From contig CM065804.1 of the NCBI GenBank assembly GCA_033398695.1, positions 52,173,501 through 52,237,500 on the forward strand: 64,000 nucleotides of DNA. Direction: 5' to 3'. The stretch's first letter is position 1. Each line of letters opens with the position of its first letter. The stretch is from Orobanche coerulescens. Its lineage: Eukaryota > Streptophyta > Magnoliopsida > Lamiales > Orobanchaceae. The translations under genes and the position numbers were made by a program. This document shows, piece after piece, positions 238 to 54,118 of the stretch. The notes beneath the pieces are model-generated. The model was not told the origin of the DNA. It saw only the letters and a list, made by a program, of their open reading frames with translations, and searched no databases.

Positions 238-1808
238 TGATAAGTGTCAGTTTTGTACACTTATCCATAGTTTGTATCGATAAAATTCACCCATAATTGA
301 GCTAGTCTACTCATTTTTTGCTTTTAATTAATTAGTTTTTTTTTATTTTATTTTTATCGGATGATGATCAGATTAAATAACTGATTTACTCAAGAAATAA
401 CATGTTTATTAAATATTCTCTTTGTTGAATTTTGATATATTCATGTTGTAGGGCTTTCCGAGATGAATTCGGCAGTCTTTCCGGATTCAAAATCAGAGTT
501 ATATATCAAAAGTTATCATCCGAAGAAGATTTGGGGGCAAAAACGCAAAGTCTGAGAAATTCTGGGCTGAAAACGTAACTATCAAAGCATCCAGTGAGCA
601 ATTTTATGAAGCCAAGTTACGGCCGTAACTACAGAATGTTACGGCCGTAAGTCACCCTAGTTACGGCCGTAACTCCTGAATGTTACGGCCATAACTCTTG
701 ACAGATTGTTATGATTTGTCTAATTTTTTATACTTTTTGTGTATTATTGAGGGGATGGCTGGCATTGATCCGATCTATTATAATAATGCTGGAGTTTTGG
801 AGCTATTAGATGACTTTAGGTGTATAAATAGACCCCTTAGATCCATCATCATTCATGATTCATCTTATAATTTTCCATTTTTTTTTGTAAACTTTTCTTT
901 TTGTGTGAAGAACATATTTGTGTTCTTGAGTGATATTTGAAGTGTGGTATAGCATATGTTGTTCAGAGAGTTTATTGCTTCTATCTCCTTTATCTACTAA
1001 GGGAGTTAGGATCAATTCTTTCTCTTGATTCAACTAATAATGACCACCAAAGCTTGTAATATGTATAATAAACCCTTAATGGGCTAAGTAACCTTTAGTT
1101 GAGATTATAAACTAGGTTAGTCATGTTATTTATGTTTGTATAAAAACCTATTGTGAATTACTTATTATTGTGTGTGATTTTCATTGTTTTAACAATCTTG
1201 ATTTATTTGGCCAATAAATGACGACATTTATGGTCTTCATATGTTTCGAAAGAAAATATGTTTGATTAGATCAAATGATCTTCATTCTAAATTGTTCTAG
1301 GGGATAGAAATATACCTCTAGTCCTTAGATGATTCTTTGAGTTATTTTCATAAATCCTAATGCTATGTATTGAAGCTAATCAACATAGAAATATAGTGGA
1401 TTGATTCAATATGTAAGGGGCGTTTTATAGTTCGAAAGAGAAACCGTCTTTTTAAGGAAAATCGAATCTACACAACATAATAAGTAAATTCATCTTATGA
1501 TCTCCTATACATCTTCTATAACTAATGACGAACTATGTTTGTAATCCCAACTATTTCATTTTATCATTAATCAATCTATTATTATTGCTATCTTTTTATT
1601 TCCTTAAAATAATTAGAACTAATATTGCATTTTCTTTGCAATTATTAAACCAAATTTTTTAATTGTGTGTTTCACTTATCTTATCTATAAAAATAGACTA
1701 ATAGTGTATAATTCAAATTATAACCAAACTTCCTTGTGGATCGATAAACCGGACTCAAAAAGTCCACTTTACTACTTGATACGATATCGTGCACTTGCGA
1801 TAGTTACA
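238..1808 (+). repeat. LTR of a Tat/Athila-type Ty3/gypsy element
   Basis: It starts TGATAAGTGTCAG after a polypurine tract and ends about 1808 in GTTACA after a tail ('ggactcaaaaagtcc', 'gtgcacttgcg') that I recall from Tat/Athila LTR ends. It has a clear TATA box (TGTATAAATAG, 821-831). No primer binding site or gag follows; the next bases belong to an unrelated reverse transcriptase. It may therefore be a 3' or solo LTR flanked by another element, or a recombinant. The right border is uncertain by a few bases. Confidence 0.6.
615..831 (+). promoter_or_regulatory. TTACGGCCGTAA palindrome array upstream of a TATA box
   Basis: Four copies of a 12-16 bp palindrome lie at about 615-630 (AGTTACGGCCGTAACT, perfect), 638-651, 659-674 and 682-695 (one base changed to ATAAC). 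They are separated by unrelated 8-12 bp spacers. The TATA box at 822-830 follows about 130 bp downstream. This places the array in the U3 promoter of the LTR. Its function is unknown. Confidence 0.7.
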
Positions 1809-2636
1809 CTAAGAACGTGTCACATGGCACCGCTCGAACTCGCGGAACTACGAAGGCAAATCAAGGACTTTATAGAAACAGGATACATACGTCCCTCCAA
1901 ATCTCCCTACGGTGCACCCGTACTATTCCAGAAAAAGAAGGATGGCACCCTTCGAATGTGCATCGACTACAGGGCACTCAATCGGATCACTATCAAGAAC
2001 AAATACCCAATACCATTGATAGCTGATCTCTTCGATCAACTTGGCAAGGCGCGGTACTTCACCAAACTTGACCTGCGCTCGGGGTACTATCAAGTACAAA
2101 TTGCTGAAGGAGATGAGGCCAAGACCACATGTGTGACTCGCTACGGTGCTTTTGAGTTCCTTGTCATGCCCTTCGGTCTCACAAACGCACCTACAACCTT
2201 TTGCACCCTCATGAACAAGGTACTTCACACTTTCCTTGATCAATTTGTTGTTGTTTACTTGGATGATATTCTGGTGTACAACTCGACTCTCGAAGAACAT
2301 ATTCAACACCTTAAGCAACTCTTCCAAGTACTACGTGAGAACGAGCTCTATGTTAAGACGGAAAAATGTACATTTGCCCAAGAAGAAGTTGAATTTCTCG
2401 GTCACAAGGTTAAAGGAGGCAAAATCATGATGGAGAATGCAAAGGTGGAGGCAATTCTGGATTGGCAACCCCCAACCAAGGTTCCAGAACTTCGATTATT
2501 TCTTTGCTTAGTGAACTACTACCGCCGCTTTATAAGAGGATACTCGGCCAAAGCAGCCCCACTGACCGACCTACTTAAGAAAAATCAAGTATGGCATTGG
2601 TCCAGCAAGTGTCAGCAAGCTTTCGAAGAACTCAAG
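1809..2636 (+). pseudogene. Chromovirus-type Ty3/gypsy reverse transcriptase, truncated both sides
   Basis: The frame is open across the fragment, with family homology from about 1816. In order it shows the start of the RT palm ([12 protein letters not shown]), [41 protein letters not shown], the catalytic YLDD at 2256-2267, FLGH, and the RT/RNase H connection region ([18 protein letters not shown]). These match chromoviral (Tekay/Reina/Galadriel-like) polymerases rather than Athila. Gag, protease, RNase H and integrase are absent. The terminating TGA is the first bases of the adjoining LTR at 2637, so the gene is cut there. The conserved, unbroken frame suggests fairly recent truncation. Confidence 0.85.
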
Positions 2637-4455
2637 TGATGATTCAAATTAAATTCTCGCAAGTGTACGAATCGCTTTTGTAGGAAGCGGTAAGTAACTC
2701 CGAGGTCGATCTCTCGAGGAATTGGAAACGGTTTAAAATTCGAAAATGTTCGGCAAATAGTCGAATGAACAAAAGTAAAATGAATTAAAATACATCATTG
2801 GTTCGATTGGATTAAAATTACTAGTGCGTAAAATTTAAATAAATTAAGTGGTAACAACACCAATTCGATCGTTGGATAAATGAGAGATAACAATAATGAG
2901 ATTGATATGGGAATTTAGATTCACCGACACACACGTAATCAATTATTAGTTCCGATACTTAAATAAATAAGGTTTGGAATTATCGATTGCTCACGATTAA
3001 AAGAAATCCGTTTGATGGCGGTAATCCTAAAAATCACGATTGTTCTCAACGAAAATTAAGAGATACTCTTTTGATTGGGATGAATCCCTAACTAACAATC
3101 AATTAACCGACTACTTTTGATGAGGTAAATCGTTAAAAGATCACGCGAAAAAGCTCGAGAACATTCACAATCGTTTCTTTCGGGTCATTTGATGGCGAAC
3201 ACCGATAAAAACCCTCGATTCGAATAATAATAACAACAATGAAAAAGGTTTGATGATCTAATTCAAAAGTTCTTAAACAAAGAACGAACAAGAGGCACAA
3301 TCCCAAACTTTTACCCAGAAAATCAAAAGGAACTAACAATCAAAAACATGTGTGTGGCTATATCTAAAAACCCATATGAAGTGTTTAGCCACACATGATT
3401 AATTCAACAACAATAATAGAAATTGAAGAACAAAACATGGTAAAAACTTCCCTTGTAAATGCCGAAATCGAACTCCCGATGAAGGTTTGATGATCTTCTT
3501 ACAAGAATTCACAACAAAATTATACAAGGAATTATTATATCTCACAAAAGTATTTTTCACTCCAAGAACATACAAGGAAGATGATGAAATAATCTCACTC
3601 AATCCTCATTTTTTGGTGTTTTCTCCCTCAATCTTGTGTTTTTCACCAAAATATCTTTTCCACAAGATAAGTGTATCTCCTCAAGGGTCACCACCCTTTG
3701 TTTTATAGCCAAAAGATGAAGAATAAGGCTTAAAGTTGTGCAAAAATGTCAAGGAAAGTGACATGAACCGAAAAGTGACACGGCCCGTGTCCTGGGACAC
3801 GGCCCGTGTCCTGGGACACGGCCGTGTCGCACTGCGCTGGATAAGAAAAAGGGTATCTGTCTTGAGACTCGGCCATGTCCCATGACACGGCCGTGTTGTA
3901 CTGCACAGGAAACTCAAATTGGCCGATCGTGACTCGGCCGTGACCCAAAAGGCACGGTCGAGTTGTTCTCATCCGGAAACTGCAATTCTCGCTGGAATGA
4001 GACCCGGCCGTGTCCCATGGCACGGCCGAGTTACCTGATGTGGCTCGAGTTGCCTGGTGCAGCCAAGTCCGGTTTTTGGTCTTCTTCGGCTTGATCCTTC
4101 GTTCTTGTATCAATACACCTCGGATTTTAGCATATGATATACCTTTTCGAAGCTAATTTCACGAGGAATTCATATCAAAGGAGAGCACATCTCAATTCGA
4201 AGTGGTGATTCTGGAATTTAGAAGATTCGACCGATACTGCTTCAATCTTTTGTCGTTTTAGGCCCCATTTTAGCTTTTGATCGTCATAGACTCCAATATT
4301 ACCTATGAAAGCGCATATTTCACCACAATCTTCGCTTGGTTACCTATAAATTAAAAACACAACATACCACGCATAAAAGAGAACAAAAATACTAAAAAGC
4401 AAACAAAAACACGACTAGATAGAACAAAATGAGTCGATCAAGAATCGACTCATCA
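2637..4455 (-). repeat. 3' LTR of minus-strand Athila-like element (Athila-M)
   Basis: On the minus strand it begins TGATGAGTCGATTC and ends GAATCATCA, giving TG...CA termini and a length of about 1,819 bp. The bases right of 4455 are a polypurine tract on the minus strand (GTTCAAGTTTGGGGGGGTT), which fixes this as the 3' LTR with its body to the right. The insertion point is inside the RT fragment (left flank TCAAG). The other LTR is not in the window, so no target-site duplication can be tested. Confidence 0.75.
3701..4035 (-). promoter_or_regulatory. TATA box with upstream ACACGGCCGTGT-type palindrome array
   Basis: The TATA box is GGCTATAAAA on the minus strand (3701-3710). Upstream in that orientation, about 3775-4035, lie around ten copies or variants of a CGGCCG-centred word. 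They include perfect GACACGGCCGTGTC, spaced GACACGGCCCGTGTC, and half-changed forms such as GGCACGGTCGAGTT and GACTCGGCCGTGAC. Spacers are 15-40 bp of non-repetitive sequence. Confidence 0.7.
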
Positions 4456-6052
4456 AACCCCCCCAAACTTGAACTTTGATCGTCCCGAGCAAATCTCTTT
4501 AAAATAACCATTCTGAAAAGGGGAACTCAACTATTAAAATACCTCAAAGGACCTCTTCGAAAATTTCATCAATACTCACAAGTAAAATAAGTCGAGTTCT
4601 ACAAAGTTTTCAAACCTCCGGGGTGCTTCCTTAACATCATAGTCCATACTTGGCAATATAAACCTCACTGGTCAAGTGTATTCACTCACTCTCAAAGTGA
4701 TATGGATAAGTATACGCTCGGAACTCATTCAATGAAATAAGGAACCCCATAGGCTTGCCAATCGTCTTAATCTCTACCACTGTTTTGTGCATGCAAAATT
4801 TTTGTGAATCAAAAAGGGCATTACTCGGCCTGAAATGTAGGCTTTGGTCGAGGTGGGATAAATATGGCTAAAGTGACTTGGCTCGAGCAATTTTTAGAAT
4901 CTAAATCACCATAGTCGCTTTAGAAGCTCAAGATTTTTCAGATTTGCTTCTTTCATCGCCTTAATTATGAACCACTTGCGACAAGCACTTTTGAAAGTGA
5001 AAAACGCAGCGTCACACCCTCCTTATTGCTCCGAATTTTTTTTTTGGCTTGGTTTGATTTAGGATCCGTTTTACGCGAATGTAAACGATGGGTCACATGA
5101 ATACACCCGGTTACTAGGATCACAATTACTTCCAAGCATACTCATATCTAAGGCAACCGTTTTACGCGAATATAAACATGGGTCACATGAATACACCCGG
5201 TTACTAAGTTCCCAAAAATAGCGGAGTAATTATTTTCATCATTTCAACACTCCCAACAATATGTATATCACCCAATATCACCACAATCTTTTGTATCCTT
5301 GTCAAAAAATAATTTCTAATTGCTCAAGTAGGAATTGAAGGATTATAGTAATGGAAAGCTCGATATGTGGATTAACAATGAAATATACAATTACCTCGAT
5401 TTGGTTTATTTAAGGAATGATCGAATGTCGGGTTGGCCAAAATCGAAGGGTTAAGATCAAAGGTGCCAAAAAAAATCATTTCCACTCAATTACACACACA
5501 CACGCTAGTAGTTTTGAATAAGAAACCAAGGCAAGTTCTAGAGTCTTAAATCAAGAATAACACTCGACAATGAAACTTGCATTTTAGAAAATGCACGAAG
5601 GCTCAATAGCTCACAAGTAGGTTTGTTCATACCTCCAAGATATTAAAACCACTTATTCAATTTCACACCCGTTTCGATTATCAACAATTTTTCCTCAACA
5701 AATTATTCTTGATTTGTATATCAAAACAACGAAATAAATCCCGAGGCATTCCAAAACCAAAAAATTCACACTTCAAAGTTTTCTTCAAGTTTGCGAAATA
5801 AAAAAACACCAAGTAAAAACACACCAAGTAAAAACTCACCAATAAAAAACACACCACAAATAAGTGCAAAATGTTCAAAACACACCAAAAATAAGCAACA
5901 AGCAAAATTAGTATCCGAAAACGAATAAAAACAAGAGTAATGAAGTATTTCTTGACCAATCCCCCCAAACTTGAATTAAAGAATATACGAACAAAGGGGG
6001 TATAGTATTTAAACAAAAGAATTTCATTGGTCAAGAAATACTTACAACCGGT
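4456..6052 (-). other. 3' untranslated region of Athila-M
   Basis: Non-coding region between the ORF-1-like stop (6053) and the polypurine tract (4456-4475, minus strand). It contains at least two copies, about 5045-5110 and 5155-5215, of a direct repeat. On the plus strand this reads GTTTTACGCGAATGTAAAC followed by GGGTCACATGAATACACC and CCGGTTACTA. The same repeat is at 25566-25760 in the 3'UTR of Athila-P. The arms GTTTTAC and GTAAAC can pair. No open frame of interest was seen. Confidence 0.6.
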
Positions 6053-6507
6053 TTACTGGTGGGGCGGGGGAAAGTGGCCTTGCTGGACGTGCCACTCGTG
6101 CATTTGTCTCACAAGAGACAATATCTCGCGTCGCTCCCGTCTCACCTCCTCTCGGTAGGCCTCAAACTCCTCCCTTAATGTTGGGCGTAAGGGGGCACGT
6201 CCAATTTCGGCCCGCCTTGATGTCTCGGGCCGATCTCTCGTGATTTCTTCCTCTTCTTCTTCCTCATCATCCGGGCCTCTTTCATAAGCCTCCTCCTCTT
6301 ACATCCTCTCGGCTCTATCCTCATCCATAATGCGCCTAGGTCAAACATTTCGGTCGACAGGGCTGTGACCCAAGGGAGCCAAGCCGTCTGCCCACCATGC
6401 TCGTCGGTGTGCCTCCATAGCCATTTGAAGATTTCCCATATCCCGAATATTATTTATGGTTTTCAAAGGTGGATTCGGGAGGAGGAAATGGTCGTTGTCG
6501 GTCTGCA
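6053..6507 (-). pseudogene. ATHILA ORF-1-like protein, C-terminal part (Athila-M)
   Basis: Read on the minus strand it continues the ORF-1-like gene interrupted at 6508. It resumes in DNDHFLLPNPP, matching the post-domain region of the intact relative at 23219-24829. Stops are visible around 6344 and at 6299-6301. The last 80 codons are open and end in a Glu-rich and Arg-rich coiled-coil-like tail finishing GHFPPPHQ, like the FPPQ end of the relative. The LARD-P insertion with its TGCAT duplication separates this from 15252-16183. Confidence 0.7.
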
Positions 6508-6989: not shown

Positions 6990-7298
6990 CGGAGTTGGCC
7001 CCGGCCGAGTCATGGCCGGGCAACAGGCGGGCCGGCAGCGCCGAGTCACGGCCGGTAGTGCTCGCGGCTTCCGCCGAGTCACGGCCGGCGGTGCTCAGCG
7101 ATTCTGGCCGAGCGATCCGTGGGCGCGGCACATCTTTGGCAGGCGCGGCACACTGTGGCATTTTTCGGCCAAACCGATCAGTACGGGTGCCGCGGCACAC
7201 TCCGGCCGAGCCGCGGCACCGCCGACCAGGAGCCATTTTTGGACCTGTGCCGCGGCACACTCCCATTGGGCCGCGGCACAACTGCGCCTTATTTATGG
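6990..7298 (+). promoter_or_regulatory. GTGCCGCGGCAC palindrome array upstream of TATA-like box
   Basis: Perfect GTGCCGCGGCAC occurs at 7187-7198 and 7247-7258, with partial copies GCCGCGGCAC at about 7210 and 7270. They are preceded by a second repeated word (GCCGAGTCACGGCCGG, about 7003-7090, three copies). The TATA-like TTATTTATGG at 7289-7298 follows directly. The same arrangement is in the 3' LTR (13082-13178). The block has much higher GC and CpG than the rest of the element. Confidence 0.7.
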
Positions 7299-12393: not shown

Positions 12394-15251
12394 TGTAATA
12401 TCCGCAATTTTCGATTTTCGGTAAATTTCTTTTTTTCGTCCGGAGTCTGTTTTGACGACTCACTCATGAAAGTTTCGTCATTTCGAGAATGATTAATTCT
12501 GCACTTTTTGTCATCCGAGTTCGTTTCGGTATCGTTTTGCTGAGTTCCGAGCTTTTTAGCGACTTTTCCGCACTTGAGTTCGATTCTTGCGAATCTCGTC
12601 CGAAACTGTTGTTTCGAGTTTCTCGTAAATTCATTTAATGTTATTATTCATGTTTCGAGCTTTGGTTTGGTGTTTCGATCGCGTATCGTGATTTTCGGAC
12701 GTTTTGGGCCATTTTCGTAATTTCCCAAAGTTTTGGGTAATTACTTCCGTTGTTGAATTCCGAGCCTTCGGGTGGTTGGAATTGTGTGTTCTCTTAGACT
12801 TAGATTCGTCTTTGCGAGTACGTCGTAACCGTATCATCGATTCGTATTCGGGTTCGGGTTTCGGGGTCGTTCGGGCCGTCGGAGTTGGCCCCGGCCGAGT
12901 CATGGCCGGGCAACCTGGGCCCAGGCCGGCACCGGCCGAGTCACGGCCGGTAGTGCTCGGCAGCTTCTGGCCGAGTCACGGCCGGCAGTGCTCAGCCTCT
13001 GGCCGAGCGGTCAGGGCCGCGGCACATGCCGGGCAGGCGCGGCACACTCGTGGCATTTTTCGGCCAAACCGATCGTACCGGGTGCCGCGGCACACTCCGG
13101 CCGAGCCGCGGCACACCGCCGACCACCGGGAGCCATTTTTGGACTCGTGCCGCGGCACACTCCCCAGGGCCGCGGCACTGCGGCTTATTTATGGCCCCGC
13201 AGACGTTTTCTTGACCATTTTCACTCGGTTTTCTTCTCTTCCGCTACGGGGTGTATTGATCATAGATAGATGTTGTTGGACAATAAATCCTTGAAGTCTT
13301 GGAGTTCATATCATCAATCATCAATCCTATAACATCCTCCGATCTACCGAATCAGGTCAGATTTCCTAGAAATCTAGTTTTGGGGAATTTTGGTGTTTTG
13401 GTTGTTTTCATCCGTTTAATCCGATTTAACTTAGGATTATGATGTATTGATGATTATTTAGATGTATTATTTCATTTCCCTTGTTATTCCATGTTTGGAT
13501 CGTATCGATTCGTTGTTTTGGTCGAGTTCTTGATCGACGCCTTGAAGGTGTCCGATAAAATGTCATAGAGGGGTTTTCGGGCGTTCTACGATTATTCTTC
13601 CTCGTATGATCGATGATTTATTGATTATATGTTGTTAGGGTCGAATTCTTGTGAAGAACTCGAGTCGGAACCCTTCCGTTCGTTGTCTTCTTCGGGGCCG
13701 AGCTTCCCGGTCGAACCGTGTTCTTCGGAGCGTTTGGTAGCGGTTATTTAGGCAAGTATCTTATTATAAGACTTGTATCTCGTGAATAGTAATTACGTGT
13801 GATATGAATGACGATTTTGCTTGCCTCCGTAAATATGTTCCGTTTGAGTTGGTTGTGTTTTCCGAAATTTGAAGGCTTTGTGATAATAGTGATATATTGG
13901 TATACGTGTTAGGCGTTGTGCCATTTGTGCAGGATTGCGATGTACATATGAGATGGTTGTACACGTGTTTGTTCAATGTATTGTGTACCGAATGTGTGTT
14001 ATGTTGGTTAAGAGTCGTTGTGATGATCATGATGTTTGTGTTGTTTTGGTTTACATACTTGATTGTACATTTCGGTGTAATGTGGAATGGCTTGACATTT
14101 AATGATTATGAATTATGTCGTGTCGATGTGTGTGTGTTCCAGGTAGGGTCTGACGAGGCCTCTGGAGTTCGGTTCATGATGTGTACGAACAAGGTGTGTG
14201 ATCCAGGTAGGGTCTGACGAGGCCTCTGGAGTTCGGTACATGATGTGTACGAACGATGTTGTGGCCGAGTAGGGTCCGTTGAGGCCTCCGGAGTTCGGTA
14301 CATGATGTGTACGAACAGTGTGTGTGGCCGGGTAGGGTCCGTTGAGGCCTCCGGAGTTCGGTACATGATGTGTACGAACAGTGTGTGTGGCCCGGGTAAG
14401 GTCCGTTGAGGCCTCCGGAGTTCGGTACATAATGTGTACGAACAGTGTGTGTGGCACCGGGTAAGGTCCGTTGAGGCCTCCGGAGTTCGGTACATGATGT
14501 GTACGAACAATGATCGTGTAGCAGTGATTGTTCGGGTAACATTTTAAATATGGATCTCGGACTCATAATGATATATTATTTAGTATGCTTTGAAACGAGA
14601 ATCGGGCTAAGGCCCTAATGTTTACGAAAAGGTTTTGTAAATTGGGACTCGAGGTCCAAAAGAATTTCTGCTTTAAAAATCCCCGAGATGATGTGTTCCT
14701 TTTCAAATATCTCTTACTTGAGTTCGAAATTCTAAAACTTCTCGGGAACATTTTGATAATTGATTTACGTATTAAATTCGTAGTTGCTATTTGCTTGTTA
14801 CATTTCGTATGGTTTGATACTTGCACTAGTAAAACAATGGAGTTTTACTAACCCCCGAGTATTCGGGGGGTGGATGTCTGTTCTGCGTCCAGGTACATGC
14901 AGGTTCAGGGGAGCAGTCACAGGATTAGCACAAGGGGATGACGAGCTGCGATACTAATCAAGAGTTGAGAGTTGGTAGAGTTTAGTTGTATTGTTAGAGT
15001 TGATTCAGTCTTCCGCTGTATTGTATTTCGACCCCTGTGTGGGTAATGTTGTTAGTCAGTCCTGTTGATCGAGTTGTGTGACCTCATCGGTCTGTGTGTT
15101 TATGTGTAAGTGACCTTAACGGTTTGTATTATTATATTGTTTGACCCTGGTCGGGCAAGCATTTGGTTGTTTATGGACGTTTAGCCTGGTAGATCCTTGC
15201 GGAAAGGGTTTACGGCGTGTAATATTCCCATACGGTTTTGGGGGTGTTACA
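12394..15251 (+). repeat. 3' LTR of LARD-P
   Basis: The LTR is 2,858 bp and near-identical in outline to the 5' copy. The palindrome block lies at 13082-13178 (GTGCCGCGGCAC) and the six-unit tandem array at about 14137-14510. Differences from the 5' LTR concentrate in the GC-rich block and array. It is followed by the TGCAT duplication at 15252-15256. Confidence 0.88.
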
Positions 15252-16540: not shown

Positions 16541-17581
16541 TGTTGGAACATTTTGTTCCATACATAAATTAAAAGTGTTTTGATGATTGATGTTGATAAG
16601 CAAAACAAAACAACGAAGAGGCGAAGCCAAGAATCGAAGAAAACGAAGCTGGAAAATAGTGTTCTGCACAAGCTTAACGTACGTAACTCAGCATGATTAA
16701 CGTACGTAAATGAAGCAGCCTTAACGTACGTAAGGGAAGTAATATAACGTACGTAAGGTAGTTCAAACCAAGTGAACGTTGGAGGAGTCAAAGTCAGAAA
16801 AGCATCCAACGGATATATGACGTCAGCAGTGACGTAATGTTAACGTACGTAACAAAGGAAAGGCTAACGTACGTAACTCAAAATGACGAAACTCCCTAGA
16901 CTGAAACTGAAAGAGGCTTACGTACGTAACCTGTAGAGGTTAACGTATGTAACAGTGATTACGTACATAATGGAATGGATATAACGTACGTAAAGAAGGT
17001 TCAGCAGCTAACGGCTAGTTTGAAGATGGAGCCTATAAATACCATCCCTATGGTATTGTTTGAGTACAACAACCTTGAGCAAATTGTCTATTCTTATGAT
17101 ATTATTATACACATTCTTGTTGTTGATATTGAGCTTAATTGTAAGTGTTTGAGTGAGAATTCACGAAAACATACACGAGTGGTAAAAGAAAAGATACGAT
17201 TGGATTCGGTGTTATTAGGATCAAGTATCCGGCATTGTTAGAATCGCAATCGCTATCGAGTGAGGTTTATCTAGTACCCATAGAAAGCTAGAGAGGTTGA
17301 TTCCTTGTCCGATAGAAAAGGAAAACGGTTTAACTTGGACCGACGCAAAGACAAGTACGAGTGGTATATCACGGACCAATAGAAGACGTGATTGTAACGG
17401 TTATACCTCGACCAATAGAAGAGAGGAGAAGAGGTTTTTCTTTAGCCTATTGAAAAAGATACCGAGAGAGGACGTAGGCTCGTTTATAGCCGAACCTCTA
17501 TAAATCTGTGTGTGCTCTTATTTTCCGCACTTATATTTACGCTTCCGCAAACGGCGCAAATATCCGAATCCGTACCCAACA
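16541..17581 (+). repeat. 5' LTR of the TR-GAG element
   Basis: It starts TGTTGGAACATTTTGTTCC and ends CGTACCCAACA. The inner ends form the inverted pair TGTTGG/CCAACA, and TGTTGGAACA is followed by TGTTCCATACA, a second small inverted repeat. It holds the TACGTACGTA array and a TATA box at 17033-17041. It is related to the minus-strand LTR at 46927-48106. Confidence 0.92.
16673..17041 (+). promoter_or_regulatory. Ten-copy TTAACGTACGTAAC palindrome array with TATA box
   Basis: Copies lie near 16674, 16698, 16719, 16744, 16839, 16864, 16917, 16938, 16957 and 16980; eight keep the exact ACGTACGT core. The TATA box CCTATAAATACC is at 17032-17043. The 3' LTR carries the same ten (19788-20105). 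Two 5'-LTR copies (near 16938 and 16957) are altered by CpG transitions (ACGTATGT, ACGTACAT) where the 3' LTR is intact. ACGT is the usual plant bZIP-binding core, so transcription-factor binding is plausible. Confidence 0.75.
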
Positions 17582-17639
17582 ATTGGTATCGGAGCCATAC
17601 TCCAATACGCGGCTTAACATCCGAGGAGAAAAAGATCCA

Positions 17640-18650
17640 ATGGAGTTTCAATTCTCTCCAGTCGAAGGCCTTGCTCTCAACCGACCACCATTCTTTGATG
17701 GCTCAAATTATTTGACGTGGAAGAAGAAGATGTCGATATTCATCCGAGCATACGATATAGAGATTTGGAAGATTATTTGCCTTGGCCCAAAAGTTCCTAT
17801 CAAATCCGACGGTACACTCAAATCTTTCGAAGAATACGACGATGCCGATTGGAAAAATGACCATCTAAATTGTAAGGCTACTCAACTTTTATTTTGTGCC
17901 TTAAATCCGGAAGAGGTCAATCGAATCTCATCGTGTGAGAGTGCGAAAGAAATATGGAAAATTCTAGAAATCACACACGAAGGGACGACTCAAGTCAAGG
18001 AGACGAAGATAAATATGCTTCTCCATGACTACGAGTTATTCATGATGAAGGGTGACGAGTCCATCACCAATATGCTCGATCGATTCTCGGTCATCACCAA
18101 TGAACTAGCTTCGTTTGGCAAACCATTATCTAGTAGTGAAAAAGTCAAGAAAATCTTAAGATCACTACCTAGCGAATGGGACGGCACCGTGACCGCAATT
18201 ATGGAATCCAAAGATCTCAACACGCTCGATTTTAGTGCCCTTGTTGGTTCACTAATCAATTATGAGATTGTTTTAAAATCACGAAGTGTCAAGCCGAAGC
18301 CGAAGGAACGATCGTTAGCCATGAAGGCTAAGATTTCGAGGAAGAAAGAAGAAACCCCGGTGGAGGAAAGCGACGAAGAAGCGGCATATTATGCCAAGAA
18401 TATTAATAAATTCCAAACTTTATTAAACCGGAGGAAGAAGGATATCTCGGGCGAATCTAAGAAATTCCACAACTCTTGTCGATTATGTGGTAAACCAGGC
18501 CACTTTGCTAAAAATTGCCGTGTCAAACCCAAGAAGGAGATTCTCATAGCAACATGGAGCGATGACGACGAAGATGATGAGTTCATCAATCAAAATAATC
18601 TCGCTCTCATGGCCCGGAGTTCGTTCGACGACAGCGACGTCGAAAGCTAA
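17640..18650 (+). CDS. gag: Sirevirus-type Gag
   Basis: A 336-codon frame starts at the ATG at 17640, 59 bp after the 5' LTR and just past the primer binding site. I prefer this ATG because the typical copia Gag start (RPPFFDGSNYLTWKKKM) follows at once. The UBN2-like Gag core spans about residues 20-220 (KEIWKILEITHEGT, LRSLPSEWDGTVTAI). A zinc knuckle CRLCGKPGHFAKNC is at residues 280-293 (18477-18518), followed by an acidic run SDDDEDDEF. The stop at 18648 is followed in the same frame by a further 176 codons, so the ancestral protein was longer. Gag forms the particle and packages RNA. Confidence 0.88.
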   Translation: MEFQFSPVEGLALNRPPFFDGSNYLTWKKKMSIFIRAYDIEIWKIICLGPKVPIKSDGTLKSFEEYDDADWKNDHLNCKATQLLFCALNPEEVNRISSCESAKEIWKILEITHEGTTQVKETKINMLLHDYELFMMKGDESITNMLDRFSVITNELASFGKPLSSSEKVKKILRSLPSEWDGTVTAIMESKDLNTLDFSALVGSLINYEIVLKSRSVKPKPKERSLAMKAKISRKKEETPVEESDEEAAYYAKNINKFQTLLNRRKKDISGESKKFHNSCRLCGKPGHFAKNCRVKPKKEILIATWSDDDEDDEFINQNNLALMARSSFDDSDVES

Positions 18651-19181
18651 GTAAGTACATCCTCCCGTGACGAACTTTTTGATGCCTTTAAGTTATTACA
18701 TACGGATTTCCAAAATGCTTTATCCGAAATAAAATCCCTTAAGTCTAAAATTAAATCTTTGGAAATTGAAAATTCCAAAATTATCGAAAAGGGAAAATTT
18801 GTTGAAATCGATCATTCAAAGTGTATTGAAAATGAAAATATTTTGAAGAATGATCTCGTTAAAATCCAAATCGAGCTTAAATCTTTGACAAAGAAATTTT
18901 CGTGTGGAAACGAGAAATTTGAACAAATGTTATGTGTTCAAAAATATACTTTAAATAAAGAGGGGTTAGGATTCAAACCACATTCGAAAAATGAATCCGT
19001 TAATTTTAAAATACCCCATTGCGAAAAGTGTTTAAAAATTGGGCATCATATTTCAAGTTGCAAAAGCCCGAGACGGATGATAAAAATTAAGAAAATTTGG
19101 GTTCCTAAAGGAACAATCGTTTCAAATACCGTCTATGTTTCCAAACAAAAACCAACTATAGGTTGGATCCCCAAAAATTGA
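18651..19181 (+). pseudogene. In-frame C-terminal extension of Gag beyond one stop codon
   Basis: This stays in the gag frame and is open to 19181. It encodes a Lys/Glu/Ile-rich coiled-coil segment (IKSLKSKIKSLEIENSKI) and a second CCHC-like finger CEKCLKIGHHISSC (19020-19061), ending PTIGWIPKN. Other Sirevirus Gags have a coiled coil after the first knuckle, so the single TAA at 18648-18650 looks like a point mutation. Stop readthrough cannot be excluded. There is no protease after it. Confidence 0.7.
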
Positions 19182-19197
19182 TTTTTGTATCTTACTC

Positions 19198-19653
19198 AGG
19201 GGGAGTATTTTTTTTAAGGGGAGATAATATTTTCAGGGGGAGTTTTTACCCTCTATGCATTTATTTATCATAAATTGATATCGTGCACATTTCAATTGCT
19301 ATTTTTTTTACTTTTTGATGAAACAAAAAGGGGGAGAGAAAGGAGGAAAATAAGAAAAATGGGATTTACCCTAAAAGGGGGAGAAACTAAGGAGTTGAAA
19401 AATGAAAAGGAGAAGTCGAAAAAATGACAGAAAAAGAAAAATGAGGAGACGTCGACAAGACGATGAAAAATTAATGAAAGTGAGAAAAGAAAAAGAGAAA
19501 AGAAAAGAAGGAGTCGAAAAAGAAATGGGAGAAGATTCTAACGAAACGGACAAAGCCGAAAACTTTGGTCTATACACATATACATATACTTGTATTTTTT
19601 CATGAAAATCCCATTGACGAAGTGTTGTTTTGTAATCATCAAAAGGGGGAGAT
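19198..19653 (+). other. Multiple polypurine tracts upstream of 3' LTR (Sirevirus hallmark)
   Basis: Repeated purine tracts occur at about 19198 (CAGGGGGAGT), 19216 (AAGGGGAGATAA), 19235 (CAGGGGGAGTT), 19325 (AAAAAGGGGGAGAGAAAGG), 19372 (AAAAGGGGGAGAAAC) and 19641 (AAAAGGGGGAGAT, adjoining the LTR). Multiple polypurine tracts are a published Sirevirus feature, which supports the lineage call for this pol-less element. Confidence 0.75.
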
Positions 19654-20694
19654 TGTTGGAACATTTTTTTCCATACATAAATTAAAAGTGTTTTGATGAT
19701 TGATGTTGATAAGCAAAACAAAACAACGAAGAGGCGAAGCCAAGAATCGAAGAAAACGAAGCTGGAAAATAGTGTTCTGCACAAGCTTAACGTACGTAAC
19801 TCAGCATGATTAACGTACGTAAATGAAGCAGCCTTAACGTACGTAAGGGAAGTAATATAACGTACGTAAGGTAGTTCAAACCAAGTGAACGTTGGAGGAG
19901 TCAAAGTCAGAAAAGCATCCAACGGATATATGACGTCAGCAGTGACGTAATGTTAACGTACGTAACAAAGGAAAGGCTAACGTACGTAACTCAAAATGAC
20001 GAAACTCCCTGGACTGAAACTGAAAGAGGCTTACGTACGTATCCTGTATAGGTTAACGTACGTAACAGTGATTACGTACGTAATGGAATGGATATAACGT
20101 ACGTAAAGAATGTTCAGCAGCTAACGGCTAGTTTGAAGATGGAGCCTATAAATACCATCCCTATGGTATTGTTTGAGTACAACAACCTTGAGCAAATTGT
20201 CTATTCTTGTGATATTATTATACACATTCTTGTTGTTGATATTGAGCTTAATTGTAAGTGTTTGAGTGAGAATTCACGAAAACATACACGAGTGGTAAAA
20301 GAAAAGATACAATTGGATTCGGTGTTATTAGGATCAAGTATCCGGCATTGTTAGAATCGCAATCGCTATCGAGTGAGGTTTATCTAGTACCCATACAAAG
20401 CTAGAGAGGTTGATTCCTTGTCCGATAGAAAAGGAAAACGGTTTAACTTGGACCGACGCAAAGACAAGTACGAGTGGTATATCACGGACCAATAGAAGAC
20501 GTGATTGTAACGGTTATACCTCGACCGATAGAAGAGAGGAGAAGAGGTTTTTCTTTAGCCTATTGAAAAAGATACCGAGAGAGTACGTAGGCTCATTTAT
20601 AGCCGAACCTCTATAAATCTGTGTGTGCTCTTATTTTCCGCACTTATATTTACGCTTCCGCAAACGGCGCAAATATCCGAATCCGTACCCAACA
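19654..20694 (+). repeat. 3' LTR of the TR-GAG element
   Basis: It is the same length (1,041 bp) as the 5' LTR and collinear with it. It keeps ten TACGTA-type palindromes (19788-20105) and a TATA box at about 20145-20154. It is followed by the ATTTG duplication. Confidence 0.92.
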
Positions 20695-21065
20695 ATTTGC
20701 TCCTTAGAAGAGTGAAATTGGTTGAAAGATGATGATTATGTAGTTGATTCTTGTATCTCTTCTTGATTTTGCATAAAATTTCTTTAAAAACGAAGAGAAA
20801 AATCGGTATTGTAGCAGCTAGGGTTCGCAGGTTTCGCAGGGAGGAAGAAAAATAAAATTTGGAGAAGATAAAAAATGGGAAACGGCCGTGCTCCTTTTTA
20901 TACCTGACCGACTGACACGGTCGTGTCGTGCTGTACGTAATAACCCAAAACTCACTGTCGGCCGACTCGGCCGTGTCATATCGGCCAAGACTATCGGCCG
21001 ATAGGCCCAACCGATACCCAGACAGAATGCCGGCAGTGGATCCTATCGACCCCTCTATCGGCCGA
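20695..21065 (-). promoter_or_regulatory. Promoter-like region and first exon of the Athila-M ORF-1-like gene
   Basis: On the minus strand palindrome words CTATCGGCCGATAG and CGGCCGAGTCGGCCG with ACACGACCGTGTC-type variants (about 21060-20910) precede GGTATAAAAAGG (TATA, 20893-20904). A pyrimidine-rich leader follows, containing AACCCTAGCTGC and running to the TR-GAG insertion at 20695. The leader resumes at 16540 and reaches a splice donor at 16475. There is no upstream pol sequence; the right border abuts the oppositely oriented Athila-P near 21066. Confidence 0.6.
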
Positions 21066-23208: not shown

Positions 23209-23218
23209 GAACTTTGAA

Positions 23219-26307: not shown

Positions 26308-27784
26308 TGATAAGTGGTAATTTTACCACTTATTTCTAGGATTTTATACTAGGTTTTTATCTCGTTTCGTGATTAATGTGCTCGTATCTGGCTTATTTAT
26401 GATTAGTCGAGCCGTATTACGCGTTTGGGTTGGTTTTAGTGTGTTTGCAGGTTTTTAGAGCCAAAAGGACCCAAAACGAGACAAAGGACCGAGAGTCGAG
26501 TCAAACGGACGAAGAAACGGATTTTTGCGAAAGACAGACGAACCTATCGGCCGATAGGCTCGTCCGAAAGGTGATTCTGCCCTATCGAGTGAAGAGATCG
26601 ACGAACAAACTATCGGCCAGCCTATCGGCCGATAGGCGATCCGATAAGTGCCAATGACTCTCGTATTTTGACGAATTATGACTCTTTTGGATAGATTTTG
26701 TTTCCTAGATTAGGGCTAATCGGGAATGTAACCCCCTTAGGCTATATAAACCTCCTTTGAGACCTAGTTTCAGCAGCTTTGATCATCTTTGATCATTCTT
26801 TATCATTCTTTATCATCTACCATCATCTTTCATCAGCCCTTTTCATCTATTATTATCTTTAGCAGATTTTTACATCTTTTTAGCAAGATTTATTCCTTGG
26901 ATGCAAGAACATTTTGGAGGAGAATTATTATTGTTTTTCAGAGATTGAAGACTCGGAGTTCATCCGTAAGGGTTGTAATCTCTCTTTTCTTATTAATAAT
27001 ATGCATTCTTCATCTAATTCTTGTTTAATTTCAATTATGTCTGGCTAATTCATTGATTGATTCTAGGGTTAGTAATTTTAATTGATGTTCACATGATGTT
27101 CCTTTGATTACCTTTTGACCTTTCATCATAGGCTTGTGTTCAAGATGTGTTAAATCTCATGCTAGATTAAAGGGCCCTTAATCGATGCATGTTAGCTAAT
27201 TAATTTTGTCCGGAAGGAGTAATTGATTAGTGGAAATACTTGATGCACAATATGATTTTATCTTGAGACCTAGCGGAGAAAGATAAATCATAAATAAATA
27301 AGTTGGCGCTTTTTAAGTGATTTAAATTCTTTGAGCCCTGGCGGGGAAAAGGGTTTAAATTAACTATCTTTCTAGGTTGCCTTGATCGGAATTCTAGATC
27401 GGCTGAGTAATTATTTCTAGGATTGAATTAAAATTTGGGGAAAAGGAATCAAGTGAATGGATTGTGTGAACTCAATTAGATGATACTACCCTAGGATCAA
27501 TTACCTTTAGACTTGTGATTTTATCTTGCTAATTTGCTTTATTTGCTTGCTTTAGATAATTCATCTTTTATTTAATTTTTATTTTTCGATTTTTAAAGTT
27601 AGATAATTAGTAACAAACAAAATTTTCGGATTCCTAAATAGCAGTCAAATTTTGAGTAGAGTTACTTCCTTTATTTTCGACACATCAATTCCCTTGGGTT
27701 CGACACCTTGGAAATACTCCGAGGGTTTTACAAATTTTAAAATTGATCGGTTTGAAAACCATACTACGCGAATCCTAGCGATCA
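26308..27784 (+). repeat. 3' LTR of Athila-P
   Basis: It begins TGATAAGTGGTAATTTTACC (itself a small inverted repeat, AAGTGGTAA/TTACCACTT) after the polypurine tract. It probably ends at GCGATCA (27784), giving TGAT...ATCA termini. It contains palindromes at 26539-26642 and TATA at 26742-26750, and shows 'attcccttgggttcgacacct' near its end. The right border is inferred from the inverted ends only. Confidence 0.7.
26539..26750 (+). promoter_or_regulatory. CTATCGGCCGATAGG palindromes upstream of TATA in the Athila-P LTR
   Basis: CCTATCGGCCGATAGGC occurs at about 26542 and 26623, with half-sites (CCTATCGAGTG, ACTATCGGCC, GATCCGATAAG) between and after. TATA (GCTATATAAACC) is at 26741-26752, about 100 bp downstream. 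The same word drives the internal ORF-1 promoter of this element (22260-22560). Confidence 0.7.
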
Positions 27785-31247: not shown

Positions 31248-34200
31248 TGTAACACCCCCAATCCGCTCAGGGATATTACACGCCGTAGAACCTTTCCTCA
31301 AGGATCTACCAGGCTAGTAACAACATGACACATCTCGACAATGCCTTTAAGGCTAAAATGACTCAGTAGACCGATTTGGCCTTTCAATAAAACATACAAC
31401 TCGATTACAATACAAGCCCATGCAGGGGTCGAATACAACATACTCCCGTACAACGGGCAAAGAATACTGCAGCGGAAAATAAAATATAACTAAACCAATC
31501 ACATCATACGGATCCTCGTGTGATTAGTATCGTTCATATTTCATCATCCTTCGTGCCGAACCTGTGTTATGCTCCCAAACCTGAATGCAAAAACAGACAT
31601 CCACCCCCCGAATACTCGGGGGTTAGCAAAACTCCACTGTTTTGCTAGTGCAAGTACAAGTGAAAATTACGAGTCATACAATTCACATTCCACGAATAAC
31701 AATAACCAGGAATCCTCAAATATCCAAACGAAATGAAAAGTACTTCCCGAGGCAAGAGTTTAAGAAAACATTCCAAAACTGAAAAATCACAAATTAATGG
31801 AAATAATTTATAAAACAGTTTAAAATGCCATCGAGAGTTTTAATAGAAACAATTTAGGATTATCAAATCCTACTTTTAAAAACCCAAAAGACGAAAGGGG
31901 TCACCGCCCCAAAGATTTACTTCCCGTAAAATGACCTTTACCAAACCGTTGGGATTTTAGCCCCAAATCTCATCAACTCACAATACACTAGAACGACAAC
32001 AAGGTTCGTCTTCCAATATCAAAATCCACAATTAAAGGATTTAACACAAACAATAAAATACTCTAGTGCCATCCTAGCCAAGTAAGCCAAACGAACAACA
32101 TACCTCTTACACACTTAGTCGATGCATGCAATCATGAAAACCGTTCAAAAGCACTCATTTCCAGAAATGCCAATAATCCAAATCACATTGTAAAATGCAC
32201 CACAATTAACCGCGGACCCACAGCTTCGTGGACCCCTACCGAGACCCCGTCGGATCTAACCCGTAGTGGTTAAAAGCAAGCTCGCGGTTCCACAGCTTCG
32301 TGGAGCCCTACCAAGACCCCGTCGGATCTAACCCATAGTGAGCATACACATACACGTTACTCATGCAATACTAACATGCTAAGAATGTAAGTTCATCAAG
32401 AATACTGACTAGGGATGGCCACTTATCTGACACCATTATCAAACTCTTCAAAACACAATAACAAGATTAAACATGGAATACACGATTCCGTAACTTTAAA
32501 CAATAGGGGTATCATCAAAGCCTTCAACATTCAAAACAATCAAATCATAATCAATTTTCCAAAACACACCGTTCACAAAACACACGCGTTTTGAAAGAGA
32601 GCCTTTAACGAGGCCAAAACAATTCTTTTGAAAATTCATTTGAAAATAACCGAAAAAACACACCACGATGACCACCGATCATCATATCCCCAAAACTAGA
32701 AGCGTATGAACAAGTTAATTGCCTCGAATAACCACAATGCGGAGAATCGACCGAAGTAGGTTGGCACGAACCGACTACGAACCCGCCGACTCCACCGAAC
32801 GCCAACTCGCGACAATAAACTACGAAGGACAATAACAACAATGAAAATGAATTCCATAGCACGACTCAAAGCCGTTGAATTCAAAGAATAATGACGAAAG
32901 TTCAAGTGTTTCCCCCAAAACAGCCAAGAACATGATTCGTCCCAACAAAACACGAAAACGGAATTCCAAGTTGAAATATGGATATACAATCCATAGAATA
33001 TGTTTAACAACATCATTTAACCACAATCGATCCATCAAAAACGGATGGAAAACGAGATCGAGAACAAATCCCCCAAAAAGTCGATTCGAAAGAAATAAAG
33101 AAATATACTTCGATTCGACGAAGAACAATGGGATTAAATGATGTTAAACACAATAATACTACCAAGATTAATCATACCCATCATGAATTAATCAACAATA
33201 CCAAACGAATCGGACAAAAACGCAAAAACCCCCAAACTCAAGAATTTAGGTTTCTAAGAAGAGATTACCTTGATTCGCTGGATCAAAGGATGATAACGGA
33301 TGATTAATCGATGATATGAACTCAAGAACTTCGTGGATTTGTTGTTCAACAACATGGCTTCGCCTCCTCCGAAGCACCAGCCGCGGATCGAAAAGAAAGG
33401 AAATGAAAAACGAGTGAAAATGAGGCTGCTCAGTCATATTTATACTGGTGCAGCCTAGTGTGCTCTAGGCTGCCGAGCTAGCGTACACTATCGGCCCAGG
33501 CCGCAATCCAGAGACACTGCTCGGCCAGGTAGCGCGCGCAGCCTTCCGGCCGTAGCGTGCGCTACCTGCCGGTCGTAGCGTGCGCAGTGTCCGGCAGTAG
33601 CGTGCGCTACCTGCCGATCCACCGAGTCCAGTACCCCACTGCCCTACTGCCTCGGCCCGCTAGCGCGCGCAGCCAACCGGCCGTAGCGTGCGCTGCCTCC
33701 CGGCCGTAGCGTGCGCTACCTTCCGGCCATAGCGTGCGCTACGCCGGTTCTTGCCACACACGTCCGGACGGTGCCCGCAATCATCCGGCCAGAACCCGTA
33801 ACCGTTCGGCCAGTCCCGCAACCGTCCGGCTAGTGCTCGACCACCAGGGCTCGACGACTCGATTTCTGAAAACGTACGGAACGAACACGACGAAAAGTTC
33901 ACGGACAACATCAACGACCCGAAATGAAAACATAATGCAATAATTAATCATACGCGACCAAGAAAAGGGTCGAGACAACAAATACAGATACGAATACCCA
34001 TAACTTTAAGGAAATTACAAAATGGCCCAAAACGCCCGAAAATCACGATACGTGATTGAATAACCAAACCGAAGTTCACAACACGTCTAACAAATTTAAA
34101 CGGACTTACGGGAAACTCGAAACAGCAGTTGAGAACGAGATTCGCAAGAATCGAACTCAAGTGCGGAAAAGTCGCTAAAAAGCACGGAACTCAACAAAAC

Positions 34201-40202: not shown

Positions 40203-40255
<53 letters not shown>

Positions 40256-43493: not shown

Positions 43494-43700
43494 CCCCCAA
43501 GGCCGCAACCAAGGGTCACAGAAGCATCTACACAGGAATACTCCGGACCGTGAGTGCCATATTTTGGTCTTATTCCTCAACACATTACATGCAATCACAA
43601 AATACCCCAAGGTCGCAACCAAGGGTCATGGAAGCATCTACACAAGAATACACCGGAACCTGGGTGCCATTTAGGTCTTATCCCTAAACACATCGGCCCA
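43494..43700. repeat. ~113 bp direct duplication
   Basis: Two units share CGCAACCAAGGGTCA, GAAGCATCTACACA and AGTGCCAT/GGTGCCAT, followed by 'ggtcttat'. They are collinear and about 85-90% alike by eye. Confidence 0.7.
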
Positions 43701-46273: not shown

Positions 46274-46926
46274 ATTAGATCAGATAAGTTCATCAGGTCA
46301 GAAGACTCCAGATCAGAGAAGATTAGTTGGGACAGAGAACTTCATCTCAGAGAAGTTACATCAGAGAAGTCCGACATCAGATAAGGATGACTGTACTAGA
46401 TCAGATAAGTGATCATCCAAGTAATCCAGTCCATATCAGCATGCGTGGAAAAGTCAATAATCACGGAAAGTCACATGCAGGCGTAGAGAGACAGACTGGA
46501 GAGATTCCCAGAAAAGCAAATGAATTAAATATTCACCGAGACCCACCACTGAAGACTTAAATCATATTATAATCTAAAGTTTCGGCGCCACAAGATGAAA
46601 GTCTTCACAATGGTCGGAAATGGGTTAAAATAAGGGAATCCAGCCTTGCAACGTTCGGAAAGAAAAATAATGAAGTCTATTTCTCCAACGGACGGATTTG
46701 TTACAGGAATTGCAACAGATATGAAGGAAGCTCAAGGATCGACATCTATAAATACCTAAAGATTGGAATTGAGCAAAAATACGATGCGAACGACACTTAC
46801 AAGTGAACAAAGAAATCAAAGCAAACAAAGTGAACAATAGCATCGTAAAGAGCAAGAGTTCAAAAGTTCTTATTTGAAGAAGCTCTTAGTTGTAGAAGAC
46901 AAAACACTTGTGTCTTTAAACCTGAG

Positions 46927-48106
46927 TGTTGTAGTAATATCGGTATTTGCGCCGTTTGTGCGGAAGGGTAAATATAAAGTGCGAAAATTAAATGGCACAC
47001 GGATTTATAGAGGTTCGGCCAAACGTGCCTACGTCCTCTATCAATGTATCTTTTTCTATAGGTTCAAGATCAAAACCTTTGCACCTCTATTCTATCGATC
47101 GAGGGATTACCGTTACAAGCTCGTCTTCTATCGGTCCGAGTAAAACCATTTTTCCTTTTCTATTGGATAAGGAATCAACCACTCTAGCTTTATATTGGTA
47201 CTAGATAAACCTCACTAAGATAGTGATTGTGATTCTAACAATGCCATATCCTTGATCCTAATAACACTGAATCCAATCTTATGTTTTCTTTTTCTCACTC
47301 GTGTATGATTTGTGTATAACACTCAATCACTCTAATTTAAGCTCGAGAACAACAACTATAATGTTTACAATGATATCTCAAGTGTATATGAATTGCTCAA
47401 TGTTGTTGTATGTATTGATACCAACTCATTTGGTATTTATAGCCTTCTTCCACAAACTAGCCGTTACTGCCAGTTGTTTATTAGCATGCTCTAGGCTGAC
47501 TTCCTTAGTGTGCGCTATTGCGTATATTTGCCTTAGCGTACGTTATGTACTGTTACGTACGTTAACGTCTTCCATTTTCAGTCCAATGGCTTCTGTCCTT
47601 CACAGTTAGCGTACGCTAACAATTTCTTGTAGCGTGCGTTAATCATGCATCATTGCATGCGTCATATATCCGTTAATACTTTTTGACTTGTAGCAGATTC
47701 TCCCCAATGGATTGATTGACTTGATTCAAACTGATATTTAGCATGCGCTAAATATCATATCTTGTGTGCGCTAAGATGACTTCAATGCATACGTCATTCT
47801 GTGTTTGAATTCTTTTTACAACGGTAATATGGGCTCGATAGCGTGCATTAATCCTTATGTGTAGCGTGCGCTATCCTCATCAGGTAACTTCACTTCAGGT
47901 TACATCAAACTCATCTGATCTGCAACCGGGACCCATTAGCGTGCGCTAACCTATATATCTAGCGTGCGCTAGCTTTGTATTTTGTCCAGCTTTTTGCGTC
48001 TTTGATTCCTTCGTCGTTTTGCTTCGCCTCTTTGTTGTTTTGTTTTGTTTAGCAACTTAATCATCAAAACACTTATTTATTAATATGTGGAATAATTATT
48101 CCAACA
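46927..48106 (-). repeat. Inserted LTR related to the TR-GAG LTR
   Basis: On the minus strand it starts TGTTGGAATAATTATTCC and ends ATATTACTACAACA (1,180 bp). The bases beyond 48106 are a minus-strand polypurine tract (AAAAAAGGGGAGAT) and 30-40 bp resembling the TR-GAG 3' interior, so it is a 3' LTR with a truncated body. It shares 'gtgttttgatgatt', 'aaagaggcgaagc' and TATA context with the TR-GAG LTR. CTGAG occurs at 46922-46926 and again at 48353-48357, a possible but unproven duplication. Confidence 0.7.
47436..47975 (-). promoter_or_regulatory. TTAGCGTACGCTAA / TAGCGTGCGCTA array upstream of TATA
   Basis: A perfect 16-bp palindrome GTTAGCGTACGCTAAC lies at 47605-47620. Variants occur at about 47495, 47510, 47533 (TTAGCGTACGTTA), 47553 (TTACGTACGTTAAC), 47629, 47745, 47765, 47840, 47865, 47938 and 47960. 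TATA (minus GGCTATAAATACC) is at 47432-47444. Both the TACGTACGTA word of TR-GAG and the AGCGTGCGCT word of LARD-M appear here as variants. Confidence 0.7.

Positions 48107-54028: not shown

Positions 54029-54118
<90 letters not shown>

Follow-up and report, generated by a model that had tools for sequence, protein, structure and literature searches.

Arrays of near-palindromic CpG words ahead of TATA boxes in copia and gypsy LTR retrotransposons of Orobanche coerulescens: candidate sites for a host activator

Introduction

Arrays of short CpG-containing words lie upstream of TATA boxes in the long terminal repeats (LTRs) of unrelated retrotransposon families of the plant Orobanche coerulescens. 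They were noticed in a 64-kb stretch of its genome (assembly GCA_033398695.1, contig CM065804.1, positions 52,173,501 to 52,237,500; hereafter the window), and the analysis reported here finds that the pattern is real, that it is larger than first claimed and that the architecture has a named precedent. Judged from sequence, the arrays, which consist of near-palindromic words of ~12 bp placed mostly 21–24 bp apart, are probably sites for a host dimeric activator of these otherwise unrelated elements, a reading that we hold with somewhat better than even confidence. The cis-regulatory role suggested in the initial annotation of the window is backed by the regular spacing, by the position at TATA and by the conservation of the words over their spacers. 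Binding of a dimeric factor, also among its suggestions, is a reasonable supposition.

Words and Their Enrichment

All seven words of the initial annotation were located in the window. For a wider sample six word classes were defined, A (TWACGTACGTWA), B (TAGCGYRCGCTA), C (TTACGGCCGTAA), D (GDGCCGCGGCHC), E (TATCGGCCGATA) and F (ACACGGYCGTGT). Palindromes are in excess over dinucleotide-shuffled controls. With long AT runs taken out beforehand, the window contains 20 perfect 12-bp palindromes that hold two CpGs or more, against a mean of 1.9 and a maximum of 6 in 30 dinucleotide shuffles, and 49 such palindromes occur in 20 random stretches of 10 kb each (L005–L024, 200 kb in total, drawn from the first 200 Mb of C1–C7), against 2–12 in 5 shuffles. 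Sixteen of these 20 stretches hold arrays of at least three words. At one mismatch or fewer, the class matches number 91 for A, 152 for B, 12 for C, 39 for D, 9 for E and 18 for F, with 3, 0, 1, 2, 0 and 1 matches, respectively, for the reversed controls. Across the whole genome (3.65 Gb), TTACGGCCGTAA is found at 184,551 sites (reversed control, 83) and TTACGTACGTAA at 170,680 (reversed control, 255); two words alone make up more than 350,000 sites in one genome. The observed/expected ratio of CpG across the 20 random stretches is 1.01, which seems high for a transposon-rich plant genome.

The description of the words as palindromes is correct for the perfect 12-bp ones that occur in excess, and incorrect for GTAGCGTGCGCTAC, which its TG centre makes non-palindromic, and for the non-palindromic TAACGTACGTAA, from which the array of the window element TR-GAG is chiefly built. 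A CA or TG centre, again non-palindromic, is present in 77 of 93 exact B words. When TATA is used to set the orientation of 22 A/B arrays, the B words distal to it comprise 48 with CA, none with TG, 8 with TA and 4 with CG at the centre, and the TATA-nearest B words comprise 5, 7, 1 and 1, respectively. Most words have a CGNNCG core. The more restricted CGG-CCG core is found in TTACGGCCGTAA, TATCGGCCGATA and ACACGGCCGTGT and is absent from TWACGTACGTWA, TAGCGYRCGCTA and GTGCCGCGGCAC. The idea that each family has a word of its own fails, since A and B words are mixed within single arrays, in copia and gypsy elements alike.

Spacing and Position Relative to TATA

Among 254 successive word distances of 9 to 130 bp, 143 are 21–24 bp; they peak sharply at 23 bp (86 distances), and 28 are 24 bp. 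Pairs of TTACGTACGTAA separated by 2–32 bp occur 26,675 times genome-wide (control, 0). Among the spacers listed for such pairs, lengths of 11 or 12 bp account for 22 distinct ones, and there are one of 6 bp and eight of 21–31 bp; five of these eight enclose another word. Identity among the 16 distinct 11-bp spacers is 25.6%, and it is 34.6% when either strand is allowed, against 32.4% for shuffled letters, in agreement with the earlier statement that the spacers are unrelated. A fixed period combined with unrelated spacers is unlike the product of simple tandem duplication.

The relation to TATA was assessed on 45 arrays of at least three words, 11 in the window and 34 in the random stretches, the LTR location being confirmed for only some of them. 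On the outward strand, TATAWAW lies within 160 bp of 33 of the 45 arrays and within 25 bp of 19, whereas random positions have it within 150 bp in 16% of cases and within 25 bp in 3.1%. The other 12 arrays have no TATAWAW within 160 bp. The window element LARD-P has no TATAWAW nearby and shows only TATTTAT.

Genome-wide, TAGCGYRCGCTA is followed by TATAWAW within 2–32 bp at 135,471 places (control, 4), a count in which one site may enter twice through overlapping TATA frames. Words of class A stand before TATA at 9,303 places (control, 41) and words of class F at 444 (control, 1). TATA on the opposite strand, intended as a test of direction, gave 49,346 places (control, 3), mostly TATATA runs that can be read both ways, and is therefore a poor control. 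In 53 of 85 typed rows, or 37 of 59 when each distinct spacer is counted once, the gap from B words to TATA is 11–12 bp; it takes this value in 35 of 40 rows for CA-centred words vs. 5 of 24 for TG-centred ones. F words stand 9–12 bp from TATA in 16 of 20 strings, and A words show two modes, at 11–14 bp (18 of 47 typed strings) and at 16–21 bp (21 of 47). Taken by family, the last word ends 9–14 bp ahead of TATA in several families and 16–145 bp ahead in others.

Carriers of the Arrays

TR-GAG (16541–20697 of the window) is a gag-only, Sirevirus-like copia element, with a copia gag and a polypurine tract (PPT) of Sirevirus type. This PPT, AGGGGGAG, is found in TR-GAG, in a second LTR of the window (46927) and in the sampled stretch L008, and copia gag is found in TR-GAG and L008. 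Neither mark of Sireviruses is present in the chromovirus-type elements L007 and L017 or in Athila, yet all of these have arrays. L007 is a gypsy element in which a protease, SH3_Tf2-1 and a chromo domain (24.2 bits, slightly below the Pfam cut-off of 25.1) lie between LTRs that are 97% identical and that both carry B arrays. In L012, L017, L019, L020, L021 and L024 a gypsy reverse transcriptase is encoded on the same strand as the TATA of an A/B array. L012 also has a third A/B array (6025–6415) with TATA 12 bp away, situated between the reverse transcriptase and the 3′ LTR of the gypsy element, which may be a nested LTR or an internal promoter. The Athila set consists of the window element (protease and PF03078), L005 (a protease match and an LTR pair 92% identical) and eight loci chosen from 92 PF03078 matches.

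Copia and gypsy LTRs thus use identical words without any relation between their arrays that BLAST detects, and the A/B words of Sirevirus-like copia and gypsy LTRs confirm that the architecture is common to both superfamilies, as the initial annotation had stated. It had also raised the exchange of a promoter module between families, by which recombination or template switching would have made the arrays homologous and not convergent. Words common to copia and gypsy arrays would be expected from such a process, and the part of a wheat study drawn on here describes an LTR motif with a cryptic inverted-repeat structure that is common to the gypsy element RLG_Quinta and a copia element, RLG_Quinta being proposed to have taken the copia motif (PMC11302176). 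For the arrays of O. coerulescens we regard exchange as distinctly improbable. No positive evidence for it was obtained: the spacers are unrelated, the copia arrays form a separate BLAST family that never joined the gypsy arrays, and the sole apparent swap, at the Athila locus L031, resembles a nested insertion. The 20 BLAST families of arrays are a rough, single-linkage grouping in which family 0 mixes B, A and D words, and no statistic uses their number.

Relation to Known Systems

No named system was known to the initial annotation, wrongly so, for the repeated motif (RM) boxes of Sireviruses are one (Bousios et al., 2010, BMC Genomics 11:89; PMC2829016). In the portions of that paper drawn on here, RM boxes are high-copy palindromes clustered in the Sirevirus LTR upstream of a conserved TATA, which averages 37 bp past the RM-bounded CpG island; further copies precede the envelope gene. 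Each of 13 elements has its own word, some words being almost common to distant species; the CGG-CCG core is present in all but one, and the flanks are divergent. A regulatory role was proposed and no common binding factor was found, and the boxes were called Sirevirus-specific and absent from classic retrotransposons (PMC2829016).

The arrays of O. coerulescens resemble RM boxes in having several near-palindromic words upstream of TATA. Unlike RM boxes, they occur also in Ty3/gypsy elements of the chromovirus type and in Athila elements, and they include A, B and D words that lack the CGG-CCG core. The 21–24 bp period, the recurrent gap of 9–14 bp to TATA in several families and the divergence test given below go beyond the description of RM boxes in those portions of the paper. 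RM boxes are thus the nearest system that has a name, and they cover the copia LTRs of the window; the extension to gypsy and the defined geometry are what is added. No gypsy counterpart of the RM arrays was found in the open-access literature, as judged by titles and the starts of abstracts. A motif of one copia genus becomes in this way a promoter architecture common to copia and gypsy.

Divergence of Words and Spacers

The words and spacers were compared within LTR pairs (TR-GAG, L007, L012 and L014, the last in two segments) and between related loci (six comparisons, five of them picked for alignability, plus L028 vs. L032). Within pairs, 19 of 468 word positions and 27 of 1202 spacer positions have changed, a ratio of 1.81. 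Nine of the 19 word changes are CpG transitions, and methylated CpGs in dead copies would be expected to make words change faster. Between loci, 94 of 643 word positions and 533 of 1602 spacer positions differ, a ratio of 0.44, with words the lower in all six comparisons. The contrast between the two sets is significant (Fisher p 3.7e-5), and the ratios are 1.53 and 0.39, respectively, when words are called in one sequence only. Excluded from the within-pair set were the LARD-P pair, considered below, the D pair of L005 (words 11/72, spacers 16/142, with 34 gapped columns) and the D pair of L021 (words 6/72, spacers 57/139), which at 75% identity is not a recent LTR pair. This pattern of substitution suggests that the words are likely under purifying selection, being retained in the copies that multiply.

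These comparisons bear on the simplest account of the arrays, as functionless by-products of slippage or tandem duplication. Copy number does vary among arrays, and the uniform polarity of the distal B words is what duplication would give. However, words and period are kept while spacers are unrelated, words diverge less than spacers between elements despite their faster change within LTR pairs, and the position at TATA is far above chance; we consider this account very improbable.

Folding of the Arrays

The words might act instead as RNA or single-stranded DNA structure. The U3 array, which is 3′-terminal in the genomic RNA, might form hairpins or let two genomic RNAs pair, or it might give rise to small RNAs that silence. 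Arrays do fold more stably than dinucleotide shuffles, with z of -3.15 for 16660–17000 and of -9.58 for 22260–22470 of the window. In maize, the palindrome clusters of Sirevirus LTRs are located in the cis-regulatory part, as here, have strong predicted structure and are small-RNA hot spots; in the sections of these studies used here they are a copia feature whose palindrome recurs in maize Helitrons, and are read via RNA structure and silencing (PMC10760457; PMC5311732). One of these reports adds, in the same sections, that in other transposon families, too, the cis-regulatory region often consists of arrayed repeats, which can be palindromic (PMC10760457).

In the present arrays, however, complementarity ends at ~12 bp. 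Pairs just outside the word are near expectation for TTACGTACGTAA (3 vs. 4.6), with a mild excess for B words (39 vs. 32.9 and 31 vs. 24.1). The preponderance of CA and TG centres among B words, and the exclusive use of CA over TG on the TATA-sense strand in the distal ones, would not be predicted by self-pairing of RNA, which would tolerate UG, nor would the tight distance to TATA. The hairpins raised by the initial annotation are possible in that the folds are stable, with at most weak covariation beyond 12 bp and a word polarity that they do not explain, and structure as the function of the words seems unlikely.

Internal Promoters of Athila

Arrays also precede an internal gene of Athila elements, open reading frame 1 (ORF-1). 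In six of the eight Athila loci (L025, L027, L028, L029, L030, and L032) an F-type word ends 10–12 bp ahead of a TATA in the ORF-1 leader, several hundred bp upstream of ORF-1; the words of L025 and L027 have an extra central base. The stretch from word to TATA is deleted in L026. In L031 the TATA is kept and the sequence upstream is foreign. The core promoter and leader of L031 are 89.7–93.8% identical to those of L029, L030 and L032, and the array is not common to them; in the comparison with L029 the identity of 93.8% starts just ahead of TATA, and the upstream parts are unrelated. A swap of promoter modules at this locus was considered and rejected, because a 3.5-kb extension shows minus-strand copia gag-like sequence upstream. 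L031 (position 650, G000:C10) is probably a case of a nested minus-strand copia insertion that replaced the whole array, with its end ~13 bp before TATA.

The 3′ stretches of two ORF-1 loci, L034 and L035, have F words upstream of TATA and no other class at one mismatch or fewer; an Athila PPT precedes the F words in L035, and in L034 the LTR is presumed from position. LTR and internal arrays thus use the same word in all four Athila elements compared, namely L005 (D), the window element (E) and the L034 and L035 loci (F), implying that one factor would likely drive both transcripts. ORF-1, which we infer to be envelope (env)-like since it follows the protease in the window, gives the arrays a further trait of RM boxes, extra copies upstream of an env-like gene, found at 22286–22560 of the window and in the six leaders.

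An activator of this kind could also be encoded by the elements, each family producing its own word-binding activator or anti-silencing protein, as VANDAL transposons do with VANC. The targets of VANC are family-specific arrays of short motifs, and we know of no TATA-phased palindromes in the VANDAL/VANC system. In the parts of the Arabidopsis studies used here, the VANC proteins of VANDAL transposons act against silencing in a sequence-specific way, a recognition of non-coding transposon DNA that resembles the one proposed here (PMC5735166; PMC10398659). The system differs in that VANDALs are DNA transposons and the binding protein is element-encoded. Words that differ among families, and the single word carried by the LTR and internal arrays of Athila, would fit an element-encoded protein. 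A/B words speak against it, being found in copia as well as gypsy elements that have no relation to each other and in an element with gag alone; so do 20 reading frames compared with Pfam, a set smaller than a survey, in which no DNA-binding domain was found except gag zinc knuckles, integrase parts and the chromo domain. We rate this explanation as quite unlikely.

A Putative Host Activator

In the proposed mechanism, a single host protein, or a small family of paralogs, would bind each word as a dimer, and adjacent dimers would cooperate and contact the machinery at TATA. The activator would thereby recruit transcription to LTR and internal promoters, and CpG methylation would silence old copies. 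That gypsy elements and a gag-only copia element share words within one genome favours a host origin. To our knowledge, the activation of most plant LTR retrotransposons by host proteins is poorly known. The structure, element-encoded and module-exchange explanations are weaker rivals of host activation.

A more specific proposal is put forward tentatively, at a little under even confidence. At least three deep lineages, the Sirevirus copia, the chromovirus-type gypsy and Athila, may have converged independently on one promoter grammar of 12-bp CpG dyads on a 21–24 bp lattice, in many families in register up to TATA. Its readers would be dimeric activators of the host, belonging to a family as yet undescribed, and changes of word would represent a switch of factor or an escape from silencing.

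Several observations weigh against a host activator. The period of 23 bp does not correspond to an integral number of turns of B-DNA, and the gap to TATA is far from universal, being also 16–21 bp for A words, 40 bp in TR-GAG and ~65–145 bp in D and Athila LTRs; the 12 arrays without TATAWAW within 160 bp belong here as well. The 45 arrays are copies of families and hence non-independent. The CGNNCG core is missing from D words (GCCGCGGC), and more than one protein may therefore be required. The stability of array RNA relative to shuffles is equally predicted by the hairpin model. In L016 and L018 the gypsy reverse transcriptase is on the strand opposite to the TATA of the array, which leaves the carrier ambiguous, and it perhaps comes from a neighbouring element. 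The excluded LARD-P pair, with 0 of 48 word and 17 of 62 spacer positions changed in an alignment with indels, runs opposite to the trend within LTR pairs. For a host activator, the 12-bp word with its regular geometry offers a bait for the binding protein and a substrate on which a block by CpG methylation can be tested.

Arrays in the Window

The array of TR-GAG consists of ten TWACGTACGTWA words, mostly TAACGTACGTAA, at 16675–16993 (plus strand) in the 5′ LTR, followed by TATAAAT at 17034–17040 (gap 40). The copia gag (PF14223, a Pfam match) occupies 17490–18647 on the plus strand and the Sirevirus-type PPT is at 19644 (plus strand); the A array of the 3′ LTR lies at 19788–20106 (plus strand), with TATA at 20147–20153. 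The ends of TR-GAG (16541, 20697) are inside a minus-strand Athila ORF-1 leader, and its flanks are 87% and 81% identical to the L031 stretch. The second Sirevirus-like LTR (46927) has a mixed A/B array at 47506–47971 on the minus strand, with TATA at 47435–47441 and the PPT at 48101 (minus strand). The B array of LARD-M, made of TAGCGYRCGCTA words, is in an LTR at 33479–33741 (minus strand), where a degenerate word ends 11 bp ahead of the minus-strand TATA at 33438–33444.

In the first LTR of LARD-P, the D array at 7187–7279 (plus strand) has GTGCCGCGGCAC words paired 21 bp apart, and TATTTAT lies at 7290–7296, 10 bp past the last word, with no TATAWAW nearby. The D array of the second LTR is at 13014–13178 (plus strand), with TATTTAT at 13186–13192. 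The two LTRs are ~95–97% identical, and their array stretches differ by several indels and one extra word.

Among the Athila-type elements, an E array of TATCGGCCGATA words at 22286–22560 (plus strand) is upstream of the ATHILA ORF-1 frame (PF03078 in Pfam; 23171–24826, plus strand), with only a TTTTAAA-like core at 22505–22511. The 3′ LTR of this plus-strand element, Athila-P, has two perfect E words at 26543–26637 (plus strand) ahead of TATATAA at 26743–26749, and not the 4–12 copies first given for each LTR. Two internal ORF-1 promoters had been described; the second, in the stretch 20915–21067 (minus strand), has two F words and reads the minus strand, with TATA 12 bp away at 20896–20902. 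Two E words that follow them in this stretch (20991, 21055) may belong to the adjacent plus-strand Athila. Athila-M has an F array of ACACGGCCGTGT and variants in its LTR at 3816–4013 (minus strand), with a minus-strand TATA at 3701–3707. A further F array, at 59035–59181 (plus strand) with TATAAAT at 59292–59298, lies beyond the span of the initial annotation. The C array at 617–694 (plus strand), three copies of TTACGGCCGTAA and one with a single mismatch at a period of 22 bp, is in an Athila-type 3′ LTR with a PPT signature of Athila type at 228; its TATAAAT is at 823–829 (gap 128).

Long runs of the AT dinucleotide, at 40206–40252 and 54032–54117, lie inside or next to copies of a single sequence that form an inverted repeat. 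In three Sirevirus-like LTRs the canonical last word is replaced, 13 bp ahead of TATA, by TAACGGC[TA]AGTT, which is found at 17009–17020 of the window, in the 46927 LTR and, as TATGAATA, in L008 just left of 3670 (minus strand). The AACGG in these LTRs resembles the mitosis-specific MSA element, a binding site of MYB proteins.

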